Positions 789 to 42,002 of a stretch of 54,193 nucleotides of DNA are shown piece by piece. The DNA lies in contig JAAYAM010000025.1 of NCBI GenBank assembly GCA_012719355.1, positions 1-54,193 on the forward strand, given 5' to 3'. The DNA comes from Acidobacteriota bacterium (lineage in GTDB: Bacteria > Acidobacteriota > UBA6911). Position numbers and translations under genes: made by a program. The notes below the pieces were generated by a model. It saw only the letters and a program-made list of their open reading frames with translations, made no database searches and had not been told where the DNA came from. How positions within the stretch are numbered: position 1 is the stretch's first letter; each line of letters starts with the position of its first letter.

Positions 789-2228
789 TTACCGTGGCGA
801 AATGCGGACCAGCCGCGGAACGATGATTTCTTTTTCGCTTTCCTTCAGCAACGGCTGCAGGGACAGGTATTCCGATTCAAAATAGCTCCATCCACGGGCG
901 TCCTGGCTCAGATACACCGGGATTCCTTCTGCCCACGATCGGCGAATCGCCGATTCCGCCTTCTCTGCACTCCAATCCCATCCCGACCACAGAATCCGCC
1001 ATCCGGGCCTCAGCCCTATTCCCCGGTAGTAATCCAGAATCGGGCTGTACCCTCCTGCTATCAGCAATCCCTCTCCCGGGACCGCCTCCCGTATCCGTTC
1101 GGCGAATTCCATCTTTTCCATCTGGATCTGACGCAGAGGTGAAAAAGCGGCAAGCGCGAGCCCGAAAGCCGCCACCTGAATCACTCCCCATGTCACCGCA
1201 CCCCGTCTCTTTTCGATCCAGCCGCCGTAAAGATATGCGCACATTATGACCGAGCCGGGAAGGATCGGCAGGAGATAGCGAGGGTGGATCTGAACATCGG
1301 CGTCCCGCCACAGGACCACAATCGGCACCACGATTGAACAGACAAGCCCCCACCAGGGATTCGGGATCCCTCCTTTGGACCGGGGCCGCGCCCGCTGCTG
1401 CCGCTTCACCAATCCCCAGACCGCCGCACCGGCGAGCGCCAGCCACGCTCCGGGGCAGACGCAGAAGGCATAAAGCAGGCTGGCCTGTACATTGCTCCAG
1501 AACTGAACCTGTCCCATCGGAATCGCATGCAGCCACACTCGAATACGTTCCGTAAATCCATTGGGATCGGCAAGATAGAAGACGACTGCCGGCGCCAGCG
1601 TCACTGCAGACGCGGCGCAGCCGAACAGCGCCAGGTCGCGAATTCTGGCTTGCCGCGGCTGCCGCCGGCTCCAGATCATCCAGACGAAGGCCGCACCCAT
1701 CGTCAGCGCCTGCTCGCGGATCCCCGCCGCAAGGCCGAAGAGAATACCTCCGGCCAGCGCGCTCGACAACGGACGGGTGGAACCAAATTGCACGACTACC
1801 AGCCCCGCGGCCATCAAAGCCACCAGCATCGGGATCTCCGTCATGATGTATCCGGCGTAGATCGCATACAGCGGAGAAAGCGCCAGAGCCAGCGTCGCGA
1901 AGGAACTCACGCGGGAAGGAAGAAACTGCCGCGCAAGCTTCTGAAAGAGAATGACCCCCACAAAGCCCAGCAGAACCGTCCCGGCCATGATCACCGTCTC
2001 GACCTTGAGCACATCGAGATCAAAGATGCTTCTGGCGGTTTCCCATAGCAGTATGTTGTAGCCGATGAAGACCGGCCGTCCGATCCCCAGATCGGAAAAC
2101 TCATGCGTGACGATCTGCTTCAGATAATCGTAACTGTCCCACTGCCCCAGGTACGGCGCGCTCCCGGCAAGGTACAGGTAGAGGGCGATCACCGGCAACA
2201 CAATGGAGTATCGGGATAGTTTCGACAT
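789..2228 (-). CDS. Polytopic membrane protein, GT39/PMT-like glycosyltransferase-type
   Basis: A 479-residue protein with about ten hydrophobic segments, starting with an N-terminal membrane anchor (LPVIALYLYLAGSAPYL). A first extracytoplasmic loop follows with acidic residues (WDSYDYL), and the soluble C-terminal part has about 120 residues. This is the architecture of lipid-linked-sugar-dependent glycosyltransferases (GT-C, PMT/ArnT-like), but I see no diagnostic motif beyond that. The frame stays open further upstream to 2345. I chose the ATG at 2228 because it directly precedes the first membrane segment and avoids overlap with the DUF1573 gene ending at 2257. The 28-base gap suggests co-transcription with that gene. 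Substrate unknown. Confidence 0.7.
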   Translation of the reverse strand: MSKLSRYSIVLPVIALYLYLAGSAPYLGQWDSYDYLKQIVTHEFSDLGIGRPVFIGYNILLWETARSIFDLDVLKVETVIMAGTVLLGFVGVILFQKLARQFLPSRVSSFATLALALSPLYAIYAGYIMTEIPMLVALMAAGLVVVQFGSTRPLSSALAGGILFGLAAGIREQALTMGAAFVWMIWSRRQPRQARIRDLALFGCAASAVTLAPAVVFYLADPNGFTERIRVWLHAIPMGQVQFWSNVQASLLYAFCVCPGAWLALAGAAVWGLVKRQQRARPRSKGGIPNPWWGLVCSIVVPIVVLWRDADVQIHPRYLLPILPGSVIMCAYLYGGWIEKRRGAVTWGVIQVAAFGLALAAFSPLRQIQMEKMEFAERIREAVPGEGLLIAGGYSPILDYYRGIGLRPGWRILWSGWDWSAEKAESAIRRSWAEGIPVYLSQDARGWSYFESEYLSLQPLLKESEKEIIVPRLVRISPR

Positions 2229-2256: not shown

Positions 2257-2949
2257 CTATTTTTCGCCGGCAGTGACATTTCCTGACTCGTAGATGACGA
2301 TTTCACGAACACGTCCGCCGAGGGTCCGTACAATAATCTTTCCAAAATGGGGACCTATCGGTGCGTTCGCCTTCCTGACCGCAATCAGTCTCATGTTTTT
2401 GCCGTCTGAACCGTCGACACCCTCAATCCTTACCGACACGGCAGGATCCGTGGACCGGACGGAGTGAATCTTAATCGATTTTGCCCGTGGTACAGTCATC
2501 AAAAGTTCTCTGCGAAGCTCCTTCCCCCGAGGCGAGTCCCCAAAGAAGATCGCGGCATCCGAGAGGATCACCTCCGGCTCGATTTCGGCCTTTATGGTCA
2601 ACTTCACGATTTCGTTCTGAGGATCGTTGGTCGTGACAAAAACCGATTTCTCCACAATTCCGGAAAGGGAGGCAGTATCGACTTTCATCTCGATCCGCCC
2701 GCTTTTCCCGGCCGCGACCTTCTTTGCTGACAGCAAAGTGGTTTCACAGCCTCAGGAGTGGACAATGCCGGTTATCTCGAGCGTGCGGGTCCCCTCATTT
2801 GAGAACGTAAAGACGTGCCTGATTGGAATCCCCTGCTCCACTTTACCGGCATCACGGGTGGTCATGGGAAACCGGATCGAGGGAGCCTGTTGCGGGGCCG
2901 CCACAGAAATCGCCGTGACAAGAAGAATGATGCAGGAACATAGTCGCAT
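2257..2949 (-). CDS. DUF1573-family exported protein, probable selenoprotein (in-frame TGA = Sec66)
   Basis: One continuous frame of 230 codons interrupted only by a TGA at 2754-2752. Before it: a signal peptide (MRLCSCIILLVTAISVAAP), then the DUF1573 N-terminal strand pattern (FPMTTRDAGKVEQG, FTFSNEGTRTLEITGIVHS). After it: GCETT, then GKSGRIEMKVDT and VFVTTNDPQNEIV, which continue the same ASH/DUF1573 fold. The family normally has Cys-Gly-Cys here; the TGA sits exactly on the first Cys, giving U-G-C (Sec66, Cys68). A hairpin of bacterial SECIS type follows at once, and selB lies at 40104. Selenocysteine therefore explains the data better than a nonsense mutation. The ATG at 2949 places the signal peptide at the N-terminus. 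A periplasmic redox or metal role is possible, but the family's function is not established. Confidence 0.82.
2717..2742 (-). promoter_or_regulatory. Putative bacterial SECIS hairpin downstream of the DUF1573 TGA
   Basis: In the minus-strand RNA a perfect 7-bp stem (CUUUGCU/AGCAAAG, 2738-2732 with 2728-2722) closes a three-base GUC loop (2731-2729). A further ACC/GGU pairing (2742-2740 with 2719-2717) extends it across a small internal loop. The loop begins with G, and 20 bases separate the TGA from it. Bacterial SECIS elements typically lie within the coding sequence just 3' of UGA, with a G near the start of a small apical loop and roughly this spacing. Function is inferred from position and shape only. 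Confidence 0.6.
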
Positions 2950-3071
2950 TGCAGCTCCATTCAGTGAAGATGTGTTGTCGGAGGCGTGATCATTTCTCAC
3001 CTTTTTCAGGATTGTGTGACAATCGCAACTCGTTATCGCAAGGTTCCTGATAGACTCTATAGCGTAATACC

Positions 3072-9466: not shown

Positions 9467-9475
9467 CCTGGACTG

Positions 9476-9925
9476 CTATCCGCGGTCCGCGCCTGCCGGT
9501 GTCTCACTGAAGAAGTATTTTCGATATCGCTCCGGCAGGCGGGAGGGCCTGCAGCTGCGGTCGGTGACCACATGCGCGGTCTCTCCGGTCGCCAGCAGCC
9601 GGCCGCCGGCCTTGCTTCGTATCTCGTACCGGTAGCGAATGACCCTGTCGGTCGCCTTCGCAACTGCAGTCCGCACGATGATCTCATCCTCAAAACGGGC
9701 GGGGGATTTGTAGCGGCATCCGGCCTCAGCGACCATCAGGTAATGTCCTTCTTCCGCTTCCATGTCCGCGTAACTGAAGCCCTTGTCCCTGCACCAGGCA
9801 ACCCTCCCGACTTCAAACCAGACAAGGTAATTCGCGTGATGCACCACCCCCATCTGATCCGTTTCCGCATAGCGGACCTTCACGACAGTTTCAACATACT
9901 CTCGATCTATCTCTCTCTTGCCCAT
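9476..9925 (-). CDS. Acyl-CoA thioesterase, YbgC/FadM (4HBT) family
   Basis: A 149-residue single hot-dog domain. The catalytic region reads RYAETDQMGVVHHANYLVWFE, where the Asp in ETDQMG corresponds to the active-site Asp of 4-hydroxybenzoyl-CoA thioesterases. YKSPARFEDEIIVRT is the usual second block. Members hydrolyse acyl-CoAs in the cytoplasm; in proteobacteria YbgC sits next to tol-pal, but no tol genes are visible here. It converges with gpmA across a 9-base gap. Confidence 0.85.
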   Translation of the reverse strand: MGKREIDREYVETVVKVRYAETDQMGVVHHANYLVWFEVGRVAWCRDKGFSYADMEAEEGHYLMVAEAGCRYKSPARFEDEIIVRTAVAKATDRVIRYRYEIRSKAGGRLLATGETAHVVTDRSCRPSRLPERYRKYFFSETPAGADRG

Positions 9926-10011
9926 ACCTCACCTGAAGCCCGACATGATATCATCCCGAAGGCCGCCGTGCGACAACTTGCATCAGCGCCCGGGCCACAA
10001 GCACCCGTTTC

Positions 10012-10041
10012 TTGCTTTCGTTTGATATGCGCGACTAGAAT
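10012..10041 (+). promoter_or_regulatory. Sigma70-like promoter for the ferredoxin gene
   Basis: TTGCTT (10012-10017), an 18-base spacer, and TAGAAT (10036-10041; five of six consensus bases). This places transcription start about 12 bases before the ferredoxin ATG, leaving room for the strong AGAGGAG ribosome site. Confidence 0.5.
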
Positions 10042-10059
10042 TGATCAGAGGAGCGAATA

Positions 10060-10320
10060 ATGACATACATAATTACTGAGCCATGCATAAACGTGAAAGA
10101 CACTGCGTGCGTCGATGTGTGTCCCGTCGACTGTATTCATCCCAGGAAAGATGAAGAAGGTTTCGCGGAAGCTGTCCAGCTCTACATCAACCCCGACGAA
10201 TGCATTGATTGCGGAGCCTGTGAGCCCGCTTGTCCGGTCGCTGCAATATTCCCTGAAGAGGAAGTTCCGGAGAAATGGAAAAGCTTCATTCCGGTAAACT
10301 ACGACTACTATAAGAAATAG
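10060..10320 (+). CDS. fdxA: 7Fe-type bacterial ferredoxin ([3Fe-4S][4Fe-4S])
   Basis: An 86-residue electron carrier. Cysteines 9, 17 and 21 (C-x7-C-x3-CP) with Cys58 form the 3Fe or 4Fe site. Cys25, 48, 51 and 54 complete the C-x2-C-x2-C-x3-CP pattern (CIDCGACEPACP). The longer C-x7-C spacing instead of C-x2-C-x2-C points to the Azotobacter FdI/FdxA-like 7Fe type. The C-terminal helix (EKWKSFIPVNYDYYKK) is also seen in that group. Strong Shine-Dalgarno AGAGGAG precedes the ATG. Redox partners are not identifiable here. Confidence 0.88.
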   Translation: MTYIITEPCINVKDTACVDVCPVDCIHPRKDEEGFAEAVQLYINPDECIDCGACEPACPVAAIFPEEEVPEKWKSFIPVNYDYYKK

Positions 10321-10379
10321 CTTGGACCATCCATTCCTCCTTCGTTCACGAGAGCGGCGGATAAGGCTCAGACAGGAAC

Positions 10380-11561
10380 ATGTTCTCTAAGATTGCGTCA
10401 CAGCTTCACGCCGAATCCAACGTCCTTTACAGGTTGCGCGACGAACTCAGACAGCAGGGGCACGCTGTCACGGACCTCATCTCCGGAAATATCAACGAAC
10501 AGGGATTTCTGTTCCCGCAGGACCTCCTAGAGGAGATCCTTGCCCGAAATCTGTCGAAGTGCAGAATCTATAGACCCGACTCCTTTGGCCAGCCTGCTGC
10601 GCGTGAAGCCGTGTCCGCGTATTATCGCGGCCGCGGTCATGACATACCTCCGGAATGCATTCTGATTACTCCTGGAAGCAGCATTTCATACTGGTACTGC
10701 TTCAAGTTGCTGGCCGACGAAGGGGACGAAATCCTCTGTCCCTGCCCGTCGTATCCGCTGTTTGACTACATCGCCCTGCTCAGCGGGGTGAAGCTGATTC
10801 CGTACAGGCTCGATGAGACGAAGGACTGGAGCATTGACATCGATCAGCTCGAGGCGTGCGTCTCGACGAGAACAAGGGCGCTGGTCCTGATTTCTCCTCA
10901 CAATCCCACGGGGCACGTAGCCACGCCCGAGGAAATCACGAAGCTGGTCGATGTCGCACGACGGCATGAACTTGCCATTATCAGCGATGAGGTGTTCAGC
11001 GAATTCCTCCTCCGACAGGACGCACTGCCCCGTCCCGGAACATGCGGGGCGCCTCTGATTTTCACCCTTAACGGTTTTTCGAAGATGTTCGCCCTGCCCG
11101 GAATCAAATTCGGGTGGACCGCAGTCTCTGGGGATTTTGAAAAGGTTCGACGGGCAATGCGGGCACTCGAATTGATCTCCGACACATTTCTCCCGGTCAG
11201 CGAAATCGTGCAGGCTGCTGCGCCGGAGATCTTCCAGCTTGGAGAGGAAGTCGCAAAAGGTTTTGCGGCCAGGATCCGCAAGTGCTGGCATGAAGCGGAT
11301 GCTCTCATGCATGGGTCCCGCATCTTTGCTTATGTCAAACCGGATGGCGGATTCTATGTCACGCTCCGGCTCCAGGGCATTTCCGAAGAACGTGCAGCGG
11401 AGATGGTGCTGGAGAGGAATCATGTCTTGATTCATCCCGGGTATTTCTACGACATGGAGCCGGATCACCTCGTCTTCTGCTTCGTGCAGAAGCCTGAACT
11501 CCTTCATAATGCGGTTTCCGCGCTCATTGCCACACTTGATGAAATGGCTGCCGGCAACTGA
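10380..11561 (+). CDS. PLP-dependent aminotransferase, class I/II
   Basis: A 393-residue fold-type I aminotransferase. PLP contacts visible are the SISYWY segment after ITPGS, the Asn in SPHNPTGHV, Asp-x-Val in ISDEVFSEF, the Schiff-base Lys in NGFSKMFALPG followed by IKFGW, and the substrate-binding Arg region late in the chain. The SKMFALPGIKFGW block resembles aspartate/alanine aminotransferase-like enzymes, but the substrate cannot be set. It lies 59 bases after the ferredoxin gene and 42 bases before the FAH-family gene, probably in one transcript. Confidence 0.88.
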   Translation: MFSKIASQLHAESNVLYRLRDELRQQGHAVTDLISGNINEQGFLFPQDLLEEILARNLSKCRIYRPDSFGQPAAREAVSAYYRGRGHDIPPECILITPGSSISYWYCFKLLADEGDEILCPCPSYPLFDYIALLSGVKLIPYRLDETKDWSIDIDQLEACVSTRTRALVLISPHNPTGHVATPEEITKLVDVARRHELAIISDEVFSEFLLRQDALPRPGTCGAPLIFTLNGFSKMFALPGIKFGWTAVSGDFEKVRRAMRALELISDTFLPVSEIVQAAAPEIFQLGEEVAKGFAARIRKCWHEADALMHGSRIFAYVKPDGGFYVTLRLQGISEERAAEMVLERNHVLIHPGYFYDMEPDHLVFCFVQKPELLHNAVSALIATLDEMAAGN

Positions 11562-24014: not shown

Positions 24015-24144
24015 ATTTTCCTTCTCCCTTTCATGCGTCCATAGAAGTCCCGGAATTGGCACTTCCGACCCGCTTCTATTTCGATAAAGTTATCCTCCGG
24101 ATGTTTCATATTCAAATAAATCTTCGGGCGGGCCTTACAGGAAC

Positions 24145-24167
24145 GCGGCAGCCTTTTCGGCTGCCGC
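24145..24167. repeat. Perfect hairpin between the 3D-domain and glycine-zipper genes
   Basis: GCGGCAGCC, a TTTTC loop and GGCTGCCGC form a 9-bp perfect stem, 23 bases after the stop of the 3D-domain gene. In the minus-strand RNA no U tract follows; the U-rich run precedes it. It may end or stabilise the 3D-domain transcript. Confidence 0.5.
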
Positions 24168-24189
24168 AAACAAAAAGGGGCACAGGCAG

Positions 24190-24690
24190 TTATTCGGTCG
24201 GTTCTCGAACCTCCTTCTTCTCGTTCTCCTCGAATCCATACCTGAGTACTCTGACCTTCACCATTCTCCTTCCAAAGTTGATGCAGGCCTCGTAACTGGG
24301 TATGAATATGTCAATGATCTTCCCCTTGATCGCTTTCCCGGTATCCATCACCTGATAAAACCCGCCCATCAGGGGCGACTCGACATAGATCATCGAACCG
24401 AGAGGGATCACCTCAGGATCGGCTGCAATGATACCCGGAGTGGTCGGGACACCCGATTTGGTGATGCCCGAGATGCAGTAGGCGGTCGCCTGAAATACTT
24501 CTTCCGAATTCCCCGCCGGTTGAGGTTCGACTGCATCCGGGACAGGAGATGCCTCTCTGATCGGCGAGGGATTAACCCGGGCACACTCCCGGTGGGTGAT
24601 ATGAACGGCGAATACAAAACCAATAATTACGACAAAGAAACGAAGAATACCCAGATATCTTCGACCATGGCTGAATAGCTTTTTCGGCAT
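24190..24690 (-). CDS. 3D-domain protein, membrane-anchored
   Basis: A 166-residue protein with an N-terminal membrane span (FFVVIIGFVFAVHI) and a C-terminal 3D domain. The three-Asp pattern is visible: IAADPEVIPLGS, YQVMDTGKAIKG and IIDIFIPS, preceded by ATAYC and GITKSG. The fold is a double-psi beta-barrel related to the MltA lytic transglycosylase catalytic domain, so cell-wall binding or cleavage is likely on the outer face of the membrane. SD-like GGAGAG lies five bases before ATG. Confidence 0.86.
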   Translation of the reverse strand: MPKKLFSHGRRYLGILRFFVVIIGFVFAVHITHRECARVNPSPIREASPVPDAVEPQPAGNSEEVFQATAYCISGITKSGVPTTPGIIAADPEVIPLGSMIYVESPLMGGFYQVMDTGKAIKGKIIDIFIPSYEACINFGRRMVKVRVLRYGFEENEKKEVREPTE

Positions 24691-24921
24691 AACACTCTCC
24701 AGTAACTAGAGAATCTCTTCCGGCAAAAGAATTGGAGCCTCGGCTCAAAGAGACGCAAAATGAGGGGGGACGCAAGCCGCCAGGGCGACTTCAGGATAAG
24801 ACAATCGGGCGATTATGACTCGACACTCGTTAAACATGGGGGGGATCCTAGCACTTTGGTGCCGGCGCGGGCAACCATAATTTTAGTGGGGCCTTGAAGC
24901 GGTTGGGGGGGGATGGAACTT
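24691..24921. other. Intergenic region with repeated long G tracts
   Basis: A 231-base gap without a convincing gene or RNA. The plus strand has G runs of six (24764-24769), seven (24838-24844), four (24888-24891) and eight (24905-24912) bases. Long homopolymers of this kind are rare in the rest of the window. They could form quadruplex structure or slip in replication, but nothing is known about function. Confidence 0.4.
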
Positions 24922-25347
24922 TCATTTGAGTGAATCCAGCAGATGGTCAATGCCCGCCTGGGACACCTGGCGGTCCTGTTCGGGCGAGCCTGAACTGGCA
25001 CCGACGCCGCCGGCAATCGCATTGTTTATGAAGATGGGAAGACCGCCTCCGACAATCATGAACCGTCCCTGGTTAGAAGCATGCATCCCGAAAGCCGGCC
25101 CCCCCGCCCCGGCGATCATGGCATACTCATGGGTGCCCCTGCGGGCACAGGCCGCGGTGAACGCCTTGTTTATCGCCACGTCAATGCTGGTGAGGCGCGC
25201 TCCATCCATGCGAATGAAAGCAAGCAGGTGCCCTCCGTCATCCACAACCGCGATATCCATATCCACTCCAATTTCCTTCGCCTTGGCTTCCGCGCCTTCG
25301 AGAATTATTCTTGCATCGCTGAGCGTGAGTTTTGGTGTCGTTATCAT
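24922..25347 (-). CDS. GlcG/HbpS-like protein (DUF336)
   Basis: A 141-residue protein of the GlcG/HbpS family, a small alpha/beta fold that in Streptomyces HbpS binds haem. Family marks are LSDARIILEGAEAKAKEIG, IAVVDDGGHLLAFIRMDGA, the INKAFTAA segment and GGLPIFINN...GGVGASSG. In E. coli GlcG sits in the glycolate operon; no glycolate genes are here. GGAGG eight bases before ATG supports the start. It is divergent from the HAD gene. Confidence 0.88.
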   Translation of the reverse strand: MITTPKLTLSDARIILEGAEAKAKEIGVDMDIAVVDDGGHLLAFIRMDGARLTSIDVAINKAFTAACARRGTHEYAMIAGAGGPAFGMHASNQGRFMIVGGGLPIFINNAIAGGVGASSGSPEQDRQVSQAGIDHLLDSLK

Positions 25348-25400
25348 AGGGAACCCTCCGGGTATAAGATTATCATCTGTCGAAAGGAGTTCTTGCTGAC

Positions 25401-26507: not shown

Positions 26508-27151
26508 GCGTAATAACGATAGAACGCAAGGTCCTGGAGAAAAACGAGCAGATAGCCGCCCGCAACCGGCAGATCTTCCAGGAACACGGCATTTTTGTCC
26601 TGAATCTTGTAAGCTCTCCCGGAGCGGGCAAGACCAGTATTCTCGAGAAGACCTTTCAGGAACTGCGGGACGAACTCAATATCGCGGTAGTTGAAGGTGA
26701 TGTTCAGACCGACCTCGACGCCCAGCGAGTCGCCCGCTACGGAGTTCCGGTGATCCAGATTGTCACCTCGGGCGGATGCCACCTCGAGGCAACGCTCGTA
26801 CAGGATGCCGTCGGCAATCTCGACCTGAAGGAGCTTGATATCCTTTTTATCGAAAACGTCGGCAACCTCGTCTGCCCTGCAAACTACGATTTGGGAGAAG
26901 CCCTGAAGGTCGTGGTGTTGAGTACGACCGAAGGGGACGACAAGCCTCTGAAATATCCGGCCATGTTCCTCAATTCCTCGGTTCTGCTGATCAACAAGAC
27001 CGATCTCATCCCCTACGTCAACTGTGATCTGAACCGCCTCAGGAATAACGCTCTGCAGATCAATCCCTCGCTCCGGATCTTCGAGATCTCCTGCTTCACC
27101 GGGGCAGGTATTCCGGAATGGTGTAATTGGCTCAGGAAAAAGGAAGTCTGA
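26504..27151 (+). CDS. hypB: Hydrogenase/nickel insertion GTPase HypB
   Basis: A 215-residue GTPase that drives nickel insertion with HypA. P-loop SSPGAGKTS, switch region with EGDVQTDLDAQR, the metal site at GGCHLEA, VGNLVCPANYDLGE, and NKTDLIPY for guanine recognition. It lacks the N-terminal His-rich nickel-storage stretch found in some HypB proteins. Coupled to hypA by a 4-base overlap. Confidence 0.95.
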   Translation: MSVITIERKVLEKNEQIAARNRQIFQEHGIFVLNLVSSPGAGKTSILEKTFQELRDELNIAVVEGDVQTDLDAQRVARYGVPVIQIVTSGGCHLEATLVQDAVGNLDLKELDILFIENVGNLVCPANYDLGEALKVVVLSTTEGDDKPLKYPAMFLNSSVLLINKTDLIPYVNCDLNRLRNNALQINPSLRIFEISCFTGAGIPEWCNWLRKKEV

Positions 27152-27159
27152 TTCAGCGC

Positions 27160-29487
27160 ATGCACATATCGGTCCGGGGCGCCGTGCAGGGGGTCGGATT
27201 CAGGCCCTTCGTGTACCGGCTGGCATCGGAACTCGAGCTCATGGGATGGGTGCTCAACTCGCCCGAAGGGGTATTCATCGAGGTCGAGGGTAACCGGCCG
27301 AGGCTCGAGTCTTTTCTGCTGCGGCTGCAGGACGAGAAGCCCGCGTCTTCGTTCATTCAGAGCCTGGAGTTTTCCTATCTCGATCCCGCCTTTTACTCGG
27401 CGTTCCAGATAAGGGAGAGCGAGCAGGCTGGGACCACAAGCGCAACCATCCTCCCGGACATCGCCACCTGCGATCAATGTCTTTCGGAAGTACTGGATCC
27501 CGGGAACCGCCGCCATCTTTACCCTTTCACCAACTGCACCCACTGCGGGCCGCGTTATACCATCATAGAATCGCTCCCCTATGACCGGCCGAATACATCG
27601 ATGAAAGTCTTTGAGATGTGTCGGGAATGCCGCAGGGAATATGAGGATCCGGAAGACCGACGCTTCCATGCCCAGCCTAATGCCTGCCCGGAGTGCGGCC
27701 CCGCGCTGGAGTTGTGGAATGCGGCGGGCGACGTGCTCTCGCGGCGGCATGAGGCGCTGCTCGAAACGGCGGATGCAATCAGGCGGGGCCTGATTGCCGC
27801 AGTGAAAGGACTGGGCGGCTTTCATCTCATTGCCGACGCCCGGAATGAGGACGCGGTACAGACGCTGCGCGCCAGAAAGCACCGTGAAGAAAAGCCTTTC
27901 GCACTCATGTTCCCCTCGCTCGATCACATTCGCGACGAGTGTGCCGTCTCCCGGCTCGAGGCCCGTCTTCTGCACTCGACCGAATCTCCGATCGTGCTGC
28001 TTGAACGCAGTAACTCTCGCAGCGCGCTGGCGCCAGCAGTTGCGCCCGGAAACCCGTATCTTGGAGTAATGCTCCCGTACACTCCGCTGCATCATCTCCT
28101 GATGAGAGAACTGCAGTTCCCGGTAATCGCCACGAGCGGGAATCTGTCGGACGAGCCGATCTGTACGGATGAAGGCGAAGCATTGACACGCCTGGCCGGA
28201 GTCGCCGACATCTTCCTCGTCCACAACCGGCCCATAGTCCGGCACATGGACGACTCCATAGTCAGGATTGTCATGGAACGTGAGATGGTTCTGCGCAGGG
28301 CGCGCGGCTACGCACCGCTCCCGGTACGCTGCAAGACTCTCGTCCCGGGCATTCTGGCAGTCGGCGGACACCTCAAGAATACCGTTGCGCTTTCCGTTGA
28401 AAAGAACGTTTTCATCAGCCAGCACATTGGAGATCTTGAAAACGCCGAGGCGACGGAGGCTTTTCGGCATGTCATCGGCAGTTTCAAGCAGCTCTACCGG
28501 ATCGAGCCTGCTCAAATCGCCGCAGATATGCACCCGGACTATGTGTCGACGAAGTTCGCGCGGGACTGCGGCGTTCCGGTCATTGCCGTTCAGCATCATT
28601 ATGCGCACGTCGCTTCGTGCATGGCTGAAAACGAAATTGACGGGAGCGTCCTTGGCGTGTCCTGGGACGGAACCGGCTACGGCCCGGACGGAACCATCTG
28701 GGGGGGAGAGTTCATCGTGACCGATGAACGGTCATTCACCCGCACCGCATCGTTCCGCAGATTCAGGCTCCCGGGAAGCGCCGCCGCGATAAAGGAGCCG
28801 CGGCGCACGGCCCTGGGCCTGCTGTACGAGATTTTCGGGGAACGACTGTCCGAACAGCGGGACCTGGCTACAATTCAGGCGTTCACCGTCAATGAGCTCT
28901 CCGTTCTCCTCCAGATGCTTGAAAGAGGGATCCATTCACCATGGACGACAAGCGCGGGACGCCTCTTTGATGCGGTGGCCTCCATTGCCGGTCTGAAACA
29001 GATCATGCGGTTTGAAGGACAGGCCGCCATGGAGCTCGAGTTCGCAGCCGGATCGGAGACGACAGCCGACAGCTATCCGGTTGTAGTCGACGGCAGCACG
29101 GGAGACGCGCCGATGATTGTGGACTGGGAACCGGCGATATGCGCTATCATTCAGGACGTGCGCTCCGGAACTCGTCTGGCGGTCATCTCCAGAAAGTTCC
29201 ACAATGCGCTTGTAGAGGCAATCGTGCAGGTTGCGCAACTTGTCGGACAGCGGCGAGTGGTAATGACCGGAGGGTGCTTTCAAAATAAGTTTCTCCTGCA
29301 ACGGGCGGTCGAGAGGCTGCAGCAGCAGGGATTCCGACCTTACTGGCACCAGAGGATTCCGCCCAACGATGGCGGCATCGCTTTGGGACAGGTAATCGCG
29401 GCCTCACGCCGGCTTGCCGGATCAGGCCCGCAAAACAAGGGAGTCAAAAATGTGCCTGGCTGTTCCAGGGAAGATCCTGAGCATTGA
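27160..29487 (+). CDS. hypF: Carbamoyltransferase HypF
   Basis: A 775-residue enzyme that makes the carbamoyl group later turned into the CN ligands of the hydrogenase iron. Domains in order: acylphosphatase (RGAVQGVGFRPFVYRLA, from residue 5), two zinc fingers (CDQC...CTHCG and CREC...CPECG), a YrdC-like carbamoyl-adenylate domain, and a Kae1-like transferase domain with HHYAHVASCMAEN and DGTGYGPDG. The ATG at 27160 gives the standard N-terminus, nine bases after hypB; the frame also runs back to a TTG at 27127 inside hypB. Confidence 0.95.
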   Translation: MHISVRGAVQGVGFRPFVYRLASELELMGWVLNSPEGVFIEVEGNRPRLESFLLRLQDEKPASSFIQSLEFSYLDPAFYSAFQIRESEQAGTTSATILPDIATCDQCLSEVLDPGNRRHLYPFTNCTHCGPRYTIIESLPYDRPNTSMKVFEMCRECRREYEDPEDRRFHAQPNACPECGPALELWNAAGDVLSRRHEALLETADAIRRGLIAAVKGLGGFHLIADARNEDAVQTLRARKHREEKPFALMFPSLDHIRDECAVSRLEARLLHSTESPIVLLERSNSRSALAPAVAPGNPYLGVMLPYTPLHHLLMRELQFPVIATSGNLSDEPICTDEGEALTRLAGVADIFLVHNRPIVRHMDDSIVRIVMEREMVLRRARGYAPLPVRCKTLVPGILAVGGHLKNTVALSVEKNVFISQHIGDLENAEATEAFRHVIGSFKQLYRIEPAQIAADMHPDYVSTKFARDCGVPVIAVQHHYAHVASCMAENEIDGSVLGVSWDGTGYGPDGTIWGGEFIVTDERSFTRTASFRRFRLPGSAAAIKEPRRTALGLLYEIFGERLSEQRDLATIQAFTVNELSVLLQMLERGIHSPWTTSAGRLFDAVASIAGLKQIMRFEGQAAMELEFAAGSETTADSYPVVVDGSTGDAPMIVDWEPAICAIIQDVRSGTRLAVISRKFHNALVEAIVQVAQLVGQRRVVMTGGCFQNKFLLQRAVERLQQQGFRPYWHQRIPPNDGGIALGQVIAASRRLAGSGPQNKGVKNVPGCSREDPEH

Positions 29488-29707
29488 AGGTTCCGATCCG
29501 CTCTTTCGCAGCGGCAGGGTGAGTTTCGGCGGAATCATCAAGAACATCAATCTCGCCTATGTTCCGGAAGCCAAGGTTGATGACTACGTTCTTGTTCATG
29601 TCGGATTCGCGATCAGCATCATAGATGAGGCCGAAGCGATGCAGGTTTTTGAATACCTGCGCCAGATGGGCGAACTTGCGGAACTAGAAGAGGGGGGCAC
29701 CCAGTGA
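29450..29707 (+). CDS. hypC: Hydrogenase maturation chaperone HypC
   Basis: An 85-residue chaperone that holds the Fe(CN)2CO unit with HypD. It begins [14 protein letters not shown]; Cys2 after Met removal is the functional residue. [17 protein letters not shown] is the usual C-terminal block. The ATG at 29450 follows AGGGAG and lies within the end of hypF (38-base overlap). The stop overlaps the hypD ATG. Confidence 0.95.
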
Positions 29708-30795
29708 AATTCATCGACGAATACCGCGACGAGCGGACTGCGCAGCTGTATTCCAGGGCGCTCAGCCGCATCGTAACGAGGCCATGGACGATCATGGAGG
29801 TGTGCGGCGGCCAGACCCACTCGATTGTCAAGTTCGGCATCGACGAACTCCTCCCTTCGGCCGTCACACTGGTTCACGGTCCGGGCTGCCCGGTCTGCGT
29901 CACCCCGCTCGAACTGATCGAAAAGGCGATCGAGCTTGCATCAATGCAGAACGTCATCTTCTGTTCCTTCGGTGACATGCTGCGGGTGCCGGGAGAATCA
30001 AAGGATCTGCTCTCGGTCAAAGCCGCCGGAGGCGATGTCCGCATCCTCTACTCACCTCTGGATGCACTCAAGATCGCAACCGAGAATCCCGAGCGCGAGG
30101 TAGTCTTTTTCGCGGTGGGGTTCGAAACGACAGCCCCGGCAAATGCTATGGCCGTCTATCAGGCGAAGCGGCAGGGCATAAGAAACTTCTCCATCCTTGT
30201 CTCCCACGTTCTCGTGCCCCCCGCGATGGAGGCGATTCTCTCCTTCCCCGATACGAAGGTTCAGGGGTTTCTGGCCGCCGGGCATGTCTGTGCAGTGATG
30301 GGATATGTCGAGTACGAGCCCATTGCGGACAAGTACAAAGTCCCTATCGTAGTGACAGGGTTTGAGCCCCTGGACATCCTGCAGGGGATCTACATGTGTG
30401 TGCGCCAGCTCGAGGAGGGACGTGCAAAGGTAGAGAACCAGTATTCGCGTTCGGTGCGGAAAGAGGGGAATCTGCCGGCCAGGAAAATCATCAGCGAGAT
30501 CTTTCGAGTAGTGCCGCGTAAATGGCGCGGTGTCGGGGAAATACCGCAAAGCGGACTCGGGCTGCAGGAAGCTTATGCAGAGTTCGACGCGGAATTGCGC
30601 TTCGGCGTGGCCGGACGGACGATCGACGAGCCGGCTGAGTGCATCTCCGGACTCATACTGCAGGGGCTCAAAAAGCCTCACGAGTGTTCTGCATTCGGGA
30701 CGCGGTGCACTCCCGAACACCCCCTGGGAGCGACGATGGTCTCTTCCGAAGGGGCGTGCGCAGCCTATTACCACTACAGAAGAAGAAACAACTGA
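29704..30795 (+). CDS. hypD: Hydrogenase maturation protein HypD
   Basis: A 363-residue [4Fe-4S] protein that assembles the Fe(CN)2CO centre with HypC. Conserved blocks: [38 protein letters not shown] and, near the end, the iron-sulfur cysteines in [17 protein letters not shown] and [10 protein letters not shown]. Length and start are as in other HypD proteins. Confidence 0.96.
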
Positions 30796-30807
30796 TACGG
30801 AATCGCC

Positions 30808-31860
30808 ATGGAATCGAAAAGCGCAGGATTCATCTGTCCTATCCCGATCGAACAATATCCGAACGTGTTGCTGGCACACGGAGGAGGAGGCAAGCTGACA
30901 CAGCAGCTGATCGAAAGAATGTTCATGCCGGCCTTCAGCAATTCAATGCTCGCCTCACGCCATGACGGAGCAACGTTCGACCTTCCCTCGCAGAAGCTTG
31001 CGTTCACCACGGATTCATATGTGGTCCGTCCGCTTTTCTTCCCGGGAGGCGACATCGGCGCCCTGGCGGTAAACGGTACTGTCAACGACCTTGCGATGTG
31101 CGGCGCACAGCCTCTTTATCTGAGCGTCGGTTTCATCCTGGAAGAGGGCCTTCCAATGGACACACTGTGGAAAGTTGTGCAGTCGATGTCCAAAGCCGCC
31201 GCGGAAGCGGGCGTTCAGCTTGTCACCGGAGATACAAAAGTCGTCGACAGGGGCAAAGGAGACGGAATCTTTATCAATACCGCGGGGGTCGGAGTGGTCA
31301 ATTCGGCTAATCCCATTGCACCAGGCAGGGTGGCACCCGGAGACGTCATAGTCCTGAGCGGCGACATAGGCCGCCACGGAATCGCTATCATGGCGATGCG
31401 GGAAGGGCTTGAATTCGAGAGTACCATCATGAGCGACTGCGCGCCGCTGGCGGCGGTCGTAATGGATGTACTTGCGGCCGGAACCGAAGTGCATTGCATG
31501 CGCGATCTGACGCGTGGAGGGCTGGCCAGCGCGCTGGTCGAGATAGCCGAGGCATCACGGCTTCATCTGGAAATCGAGGAAGCTGCAATCCCGCTAACGG
31601 AAAACGTAAGGGGCGCATGCGAGATTCTGGGTTTTGATCCTCTCTATGTGGCCAACGAGGGCCGGTACATAACGTTCGTTCCGGCTGCTGAGACGGAAAG
31701 AGCGCTCGGGAGAATGCGCACGCATCCGGTTGCGGCGGAGGCGGCGGTCATCGGAAGAGTCAAAGAAGGGTCGCCGGGCCTGGTCACGATGCGCAGCAGA
31801 ATAGGAGCAAGTCGAGTGGTGGATATGCTCAGCGGCGAACAGCTGCCGAGGATTTGTTAG
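30808..31860 (+). CDS. hypE: Hydrogenase maturation protein HypE
   Basis: A 350-residue PurM-like enzyme that dehydrates the HypF-made thiocarboxamide to thiocyanate. N-terminal [15 protein letters not shown], the ATP-binding [10 protein letters not shown] and [15 protein letters not shown] blocks, and a C-terminus ending PRIC, where the final Cys carries the carbamoyl group. With this gene hypA, B, F, C, D and E are all present in one transcript, though no hydrogenase subunit gene is in view. Confidence 0.96.
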
Positions 31861-40103: not shown

Positions 40104-42002
40104 ATGAAGCATGTGATTGTGGGGACCGCCGGACATATCGACCACGGCAAGAGTGCGCTGGTGCGCGCCCTGACCGGAGTCGATCCCGACCGACTCAAGG
40201 AAGAACAACAGCGCGGCATAACCATCGATCTGGGATTCGCCCACCTCGATCTCGGAGAAGTGCAGATCGGGTTTGTCGACGTGCCCGGTCACGAAAAATT
40301 CGTGAAAAATATGCTTGCCGGAGTCGGGGGTATAGATTTCGTCCTGCTGGTTGTCGCAGCCGATGAATCCATCATGCCCCAGACCCGCGAGCACTTCGAC
40401 ATCTGCCGCCTTCTGGGGGTGAATACCGGGATCATCGCGATTACAAAATCAGATATGGTCGAGCCGGATATGATCGAGCTCGTCCGCGACGAGATAGAAG
40501 AGACCGTAGCGGGATCATTCCTCGAAAACGCGGAAATCATCCCGGTAAGTTCAAAAACCGGCGAAGGGATCGACAGACTCAAGAAGGCGATCCACGATCT
40601 TTCCCTCGCCGCCCGGGCGCGTCCGTCGAACAAGATCCTCAGATTGCCGATCGACCGTGCCTTCAGCATCCGCGGCTTCGGCACGGTCGTCACCGGAACC
40701 CTGACCTCAGGCGAGGTTCAGAAGGACCAGGAAATCGAGCTTATTCCGGGGGGATTGACTGCAAAGATCAGGGGAATCCAGGTGCATGGCAGCATGACCG
40801 CGCGCGCGGTCGCCGGACAGCGCACCGCCGTCAACCTGCAGGGGATAGACTTGGCGCAGGTGGAGAGAGGTATGGTGATCACCGTCCCTCACAGCTTCCA
40901 TTCCACCCGGATACTGGACGTACACCTGCTGCTCCTGCCGTCGGCCAGGCCGCTCAAGAACCTGGTGAAAGTAAGATTCCACCAGGGCACGATAGAAGTT
41001 TTGGCACGCGTAGCATTGATTGGACAGGAGACTCTTCTGCCGGGAGAGACGGGTTACGCTCAGCTGAGACTGGATTCCCCCGTCTTCTGCCTCCACGGAG
41101 ACACATTCATCATTCGTCAGTTCTCTCCGACGATCACGATCGGCGGCGGCACGATACTCCATCCGCATCCTCCAAAACACAAGAGCACCGACCTGAAGAT
41201 GCTCGCGGCTTTGCGGGAATTGGACCAGGAAAACCTTCAGAACAAGATCCCGATTCTGCTGGGAATGAATCCGGAGAGCGCAATGAACATGAAAGAGCTC
41301 AACTCGTTCATAGGCCTCCCCGGAAACGAACTCGCGAAAGCCTGCGCACCTCTCGCCCAATCAGGCAAGATTGCGATGATCCAGGCGCCCTCCCCCATCC
41401 TCGTCCTTCCGAACCTACTGGAATCGCTGGAAAGACAAACCCTTGCGCAGGTGGAAGGTTTCCATAAAGAGAATCCGCTTCAGAAAGGGATTTCGAAAGA
41501 AGAGCTTCGAAAAAAGATCTTTGACCGTCTGCCGCTCGAGGTCTTCCGCTATTGCCTCGATCGCCTGGTGGAAAAACAGAAGATTGCGTTCCTGGAAGAT
41601 GCAGTGTCAATCCACGGACGCGAAGTGCAGCTGACGGCCGAAGGGGAGCACATTCGCGACCTGATCGAGCAGTTCTACAGGAATGCCGGGTATCAGCCCC
41701 CCTCGTTTTCGGACCTGCAGAATTCCGTACCGGCCGATCCCCAGGAAGTCCGGCGTATCTCTTTCTGGATGATCAAGGAAAAGATACTGATCAAGATCGC
41801 CGACGATATCGTCTATCACCGGTCGACTATCGATTCAATAAAATCCCAGATCAGGAGCAGATTTAAGCCCGGAGCGAAATTCGGCGTCGCCGACTTCAAG
41901 GAACTGTTTGATATAACGCGCAAGCACGCAATCCCGTTGCTGGAGTACCTCGATCGCGAACGCTTCACCCGTCGACTCGGCAACGAGCGCGTTTTACTCT
42001 AA
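40104..42002 (+). CDS. selB: Selenocysteine-specific elongation factor SelB
   Basis: A 632-residue GTPase that brings Sec-tRNA(Sec) to UGA codons marked by a SECIS. G1 is GHIDHGKS (10-17), G3 DVPGHEKF (59-66), G4 TKSD (114-117). EF-Tu-like beta-barrels follow ([14 protein letters not shown]). The C-terminal third, about 370-632, holds winged-helix repeats that bind the SECIS RNA. Length matches E. coli SelB (614). Presence of this gene supports recoding of the DUF1573 TGA. selA, selC and selD are not in the window. The start has only a weak ribosome site. Confidence 0.96.

Follow-up and report, generated by a model that had tools for sequence, protein, structure and literature searches.

Does the single in-frame TGA of a DUF1573 gene in an Acidobacteriota genome mark a broken gene, or is it read as selenocysteine (Sec), and what might the protein then do? 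We addressed this in the window (the whole analysed stretch of DNA, 54,193 nucleotides), in its genome (4.57 Mb) and in 149 related genomes.

The DUF1573 gene and the selenocysteine machinery

The following features of the window were considered.

789..2225, minus strand: PMT_2-family membrane glycosyltransferase, adjacent downstream of the DUF1573 gene (conserved adjacency)
2257..2949, minus strand: predicted DUF1573 selenoprotein gene, 230 aa, Sec at residue 66 (frame with TGA as U, Pfam match, homologues)
2722..2738, minus strand: bSECIS-type hairpin directly 3' of the TGA, 7-bp stem CUUUGCU/AGCAAAG, loop GUC (folding against shuffles, orthologues)
2752..2754, minus strand: TGA codon, predicted to be read as selenocysteine (Ser-Sec-Gly-Cys; frame and aligned column in homologues)
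2955..2958, minus strand: GGAG, probable ribosome-binding site of the DUF1573 gene (direct sequence reading)
40104..42002, plus strand: selB, selenocysteine-specific elongation factor (TIGR00475, 398.5 bits, cut-off 242)

The DUF1573 gene starts with the ATG at 2949, preceded on the minus strand by GGAG at 2958-2955. With TGA read as U, its 230-residue frame contained one TGA only, at codon 66 (2754-2752), and then ended with TAG. The N-terminus (MRLCSCIILLVTAISVAAPQQ) resembles a signal peptide, as judged by eye, and the Pfam DUF1573 match covered residues 26-123, spanning the TGA (71.4 bits, E 6.6e-20; curated cut-off of PF07610, 26.1 bits). The sequence around codon 66 reads ...HSUGCETT..., and the TGA stands where the Cys-Gly-Cys motif has its first Cys, in what is apparently an exported DUF1573 protein. 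The sequence-only reading had described a lone in-frame TGA in an otherwise intact gene, and the frame and the Pfam match on both sides of the codon bear this out. Standard annotation would call the gene truncated or split it into two fragments, a result that the present reading corrects.

The genes selA, selC and selD, which the same reading had named as the ones to look for, were all present in the genome, along with selB, which is located within the same window as the DUF1573 gene. A tRNA-Sec with the anticodon TCA (UCA) was detected, selA matched with 555 bits, and selD (L049, contig C126:9885-10814) has an in-frame TGA of its own, and is therefore probably a selenoprotein gene too. Among all 29 genomes with a DUF1573 TGA (see below), selA was found in 26 and selB in the other 3, above the cut-off. 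Since the use of Sec is widespread in the phylum, the association of selA with the DUF1573 TGA (26/29 vs 81/120 genomes, Fisher p 0.02) is weak when taken alone.

Elsewhere in the window, with TGA read through, no obvious further selenoprotein was seen by eye in the intergenic gaps at 9467-10685 and 24063-25400. Genes for HypF, HypD and an AIR-synthase-type protein (probably HypE) lie in a row at 27127-31860, and these hydrogenase maturation genes suggest an anaerobic metabolism.

Conservation of the TGA and of the downstream hairpin

DUF1573 relatives were found in 73 of the 149 related genomes searched. In the profile alignment, a TGA occupied the residue-66 column in 34 homologous domains from 29 genomes and 12 families, and none of these 34 domains had a TGA elsewhere; 50 distinct comparison domains had Cys in this column. 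The column is thus conserved as Cys or Sec, and the TGA is shared by the nearest relative, which is 51% identical in protein sequence and comes from a separate genome. None of the outcomes that the sequence-only reading had named as a refutation was encountered. One relative's locus, in a genome that belongs to the window's own family, is QHZE01000471 (annotated as gp18, Acidobacteriota), and further TGA-form DUF1573 genes were present in records of Spirochaetes, Zixibacteria and Deltaproteobacteria.

To follow the exchange of the two residues, a DUF1573 tree was built without the Sec column (84 rows, 104 columns). It required 13 Sec/Cys changes, at least 6 of them forced by well-supported branches, and its individual forks are uncertain given 104 columns for 84 rows. 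The window's own family contained four Sec and four Cys orthologues, which makes the exchange not only frequent but also recent, and two of the Cys orthologues (L021, L022) fall inside the window's own genus. Sec/Cys switching in DUF1573 is thus widespread and recurrent in Acidobacteriota. At one locus (L087, G146:C17), two DUF1573 domains, one with Sec and one with Cys, lie close together in adjacent frames.

Directly after the UGA, the window gene can form a hairpin whose apical loop begins 20 nt from the codon. In the published bSECIS model (PMC13188914), the stem has 4 bp or more, the apical loop lies 16-37 nt from the UGA, and a G occurs in the first two positions of the loop; the window hairpin, with its perfect 7-bp stem and GUC loop, agrees with this model in each respect. 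It lies within a longer structure of -21 kcal/mol (z -2.76; 3/200 shuffles folded as well), but taken by itself it stands out only moderately from synonymous-codon controls (p 0.05). An Rfam scan of the window gave no match, and the hairpin reached no Rfam threshold. In many cases, SECIS elements of bacteria are specific to their host.

The same hairpin, with 8-bp stems, was present in the Sec orthologues L018, L020 and L023, whereas the Cys orthologues L019, L021, L022 and L024 were without it. Across all homologues, the best hairpin had a mean z of -1.35 in Sec genes vs -0.10 in Cys genes (synonymous-codon controls), and the longest perfect stem had a median of 7 bp vs 4 bp (Mann-Whitney p 3e-12); as these genes share ancestry, this p value and the shuffle counts overstate independence. 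In a test for compensatory changes in 15 Sec homologues with one common register, a set that excludes the window gene (its hairpin register is shifted by one base), 28 cells had changed on both sides of a pair, compared with 8.6 in the shuffled controls and a maximum of 8 for slid registers.

These observations bear on two explanations that do without selenocysteine. The TGA could be a nonsense mutation or an assembly error in a pseudogene or a Cys gene, and the assembly is indeed a draft of metagenome type with 377 contigs. However, genomes of 12 families, each assembled separately, share this TGA at the identical alignment position, the remaining frame is intact and conserved, and the hairpin is specific to Sec genes; we rejected this explanation, now very improbable, on the conservation of the TGA across independent genomes. 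Alternatively, a changed genetic code could have UGA read as another amino acid, e.g., Trp. Beyond the open frame nothing speaks for this, whereas TGA ends 16 of 40 long open reading frames chosen in the window (a mechanical list, not all genes), the aligned residue is Cys and never Trp, and the genome has a complete Sec machinery. The TGA-terminated frames and the Cys at the aligned column led us to reject it as well, as more remote still.

A chance origin of the TGA is unlikely given the 34 homologous domains with TGA in the same column and none elsewhere, followed by a Sec-specific hairpin, and the codon is almost certainly a selenocysteine codon, not the mark of a broken gene. The conserved column, the Sec machinery and the hairpin together lend strong support to the earlier placement of Sec at the first position of the CGC motif. 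On these comparisons, we hold with very high confidence that the gene product would be an exported DUF1573-family selenoprotein in which UGA codon 66 would be decoded as Sec by SelB and tRNA-Sec, guided by the bSECIS hairpin immediately downstream.

Genomic context and possible role of the Sec-Gly-Cys motif

The AlphaFold model of the window protein has two Ig-like domains (mean pLDDT 90) and places Sec66-Gly67-Cys68 between strands 57-64 and 68-72 of the first domain. As a high-confidence prediction, the mature protein would thus consist of two Ig-like beta-sandwich domains, with Sec66-Gly-Cys68 at an inter-strand turn of domain one.

At the loci inspected, the glycosyltransferase was the sole conserved neighbour of the window gene and the only conserved candidate for an operon partner; it is shared with the closest relative alone, where it adjoins the Sec gene (L054). 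More informative is a second DUF1573 selenoprotein of the same genome (L061, 6068-6805, contig C257) with the motif U-A-C, whose neighbours are a tetraheme cytochrome c and a rhodanese. In the clade of this paralogue, all 12 loci had TGA and none had Cys, and a tetraheme cytochrome c and/or rhodanese gene adjoined in 12/12. Five genomes also encode a DUF1573 fusion protein whose C-terminal part is a cytochrome c with two CxxCH motifs; two of these fusions are of the Sec form (L076, L079) and three of the Cys form (L102, L106, L111). The idea that DUF1573 may include extracytoplasmic redox enzymes, raised in the sequence-only reading, is reasonable in the light of this cytochrome and rhodanese context, but the links are a feature of the paralogues and not of the window gene.

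We favour a role in which an Ig-like envelope scaffold presents a Sec-Gly-Cys redox dyad tied to c-type cytochromes, as the relatives suggest. The Sec/Cys pair would cycle between selenol/thiol and selenenylsulfide in the cell envelope, and its partners in electron exchange would be c-type cytochromes as well as disulfides or sulfur compounds; given the context of the relatives, we lean towards this chemistry with modest confidence. Taken as a whole, an exported DUF1573 selenoprotein with a redox role in the envelope is highly likely to be the best explanation.

Two other roles would keep the selenoprotein. C-x-C motifs can bind soft metals, so that Sec-Gly-Cys may bind a soft metal or metalloid (e.g., copper or mercury) in place of thiol-disulfide redox chemistry. 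Metal-related binding has been predicted for part of the selenoprotein families in a 2026 review (PMC13188914), which fits such a role; yet no metal-handling neighbours were seen at the loci inspected and the cytochrome c fusion better matches electron transfer, so metal binding seems unlikely. The motif could also serve, with rhodanese, in the transfer or reduction of sulfane sulfur or selenium compounds, the cytochromes being electron donor or acceptor. The paralogue family of the same genome, with its neighbouring genes for rhodanese and tetraheme cytochrome, points this way, but neither the window gene nor its orthologues had such a neighbour, and we regard this role as rather unlikely.

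Returning to the cytochrome-linked redox dyad, it is conceivable, though we put it forward only tentatively, that DUF1573 proteins in general use their CGC/UGC dyad to transfer electrons in the envelope together with c-type cytochromes, and that in one all-Sec U-G/A-C subfamily the partners are a rhodanese and a tetraheme cytochrome. If true, this would give a chemistry to DUF1573, a family of unknown function, and the frequent switching between Sec and Cys would then serve to tune one and the same reaction. Its fusions to cytochrome c and its rhodanese and tetraheme cytochrome neighbours suggest a chemistry for the domain that can be tested.

Comparison with known families

The sequence-only reading knew of no described DUF1573 selenoprotein. 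This was wrong, as a "DUF1573 domain-containing protein, PF07610, motif UGC" is among the selenoprotein families of two reviews from 2022 and 2026 (PMC9312934, PMC13188914). The window protein has the U-G-C motif that defines these proteins, and is thus a new example, from Acidobacteria, of a family already predicted. Our analysis adds the distribution in Acidobacteriota, the repeated exchange of Sec and Cys, and the links to cytochromes and rhodanese. No paper on these links was found in a literature search that did not cover the key papers of Haft and colleagues, and for this reason they are not claimed as new.

Among the related families, NCBIfam NF041425 (OS_HP2 family (seleno)protein) matched window residues 34-124 (E 1.4e-18), but its score of 67 bits falls short of the curated cut-off (100 bits), so that the window protein is not a formal member of this subfamily. 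The nearest solved structures were Ig-like domains of the HYDIN/ASPM type and P. gingivalis 2qsv, of unknown function. The HYDIN/ASPM-SPD-2 domains (PF22544; PDB 2qsv, ciliary central-pair proteins) likewise form an Ig-like beta-sandwich, but the resemblance is structural only, with TM-scores of ~0.4 over the two-domain query. The Cys-form DUF1573 proteins (SCGCT motif) share the domain and the position of the window Sec, but have Cys in its place and no hairpin after the codon. Also close is the DUF1573 UGC family itself, which the reviews trace to a first report by Zhang & Gladyshev 2007 in the Olavius algarvensis delta1 symbiont (PMC9312934, PMC13188914). As the reviews describe it, it has the same Pfam domain and the same Sec-Gly-Cys motif, in which Sec takes the place of the first Cys; the present case differs from that description in lying in Acidobacteriota and in coming with a Cys/Sec phylogeny, a hairpin comparison and cytochrome links.
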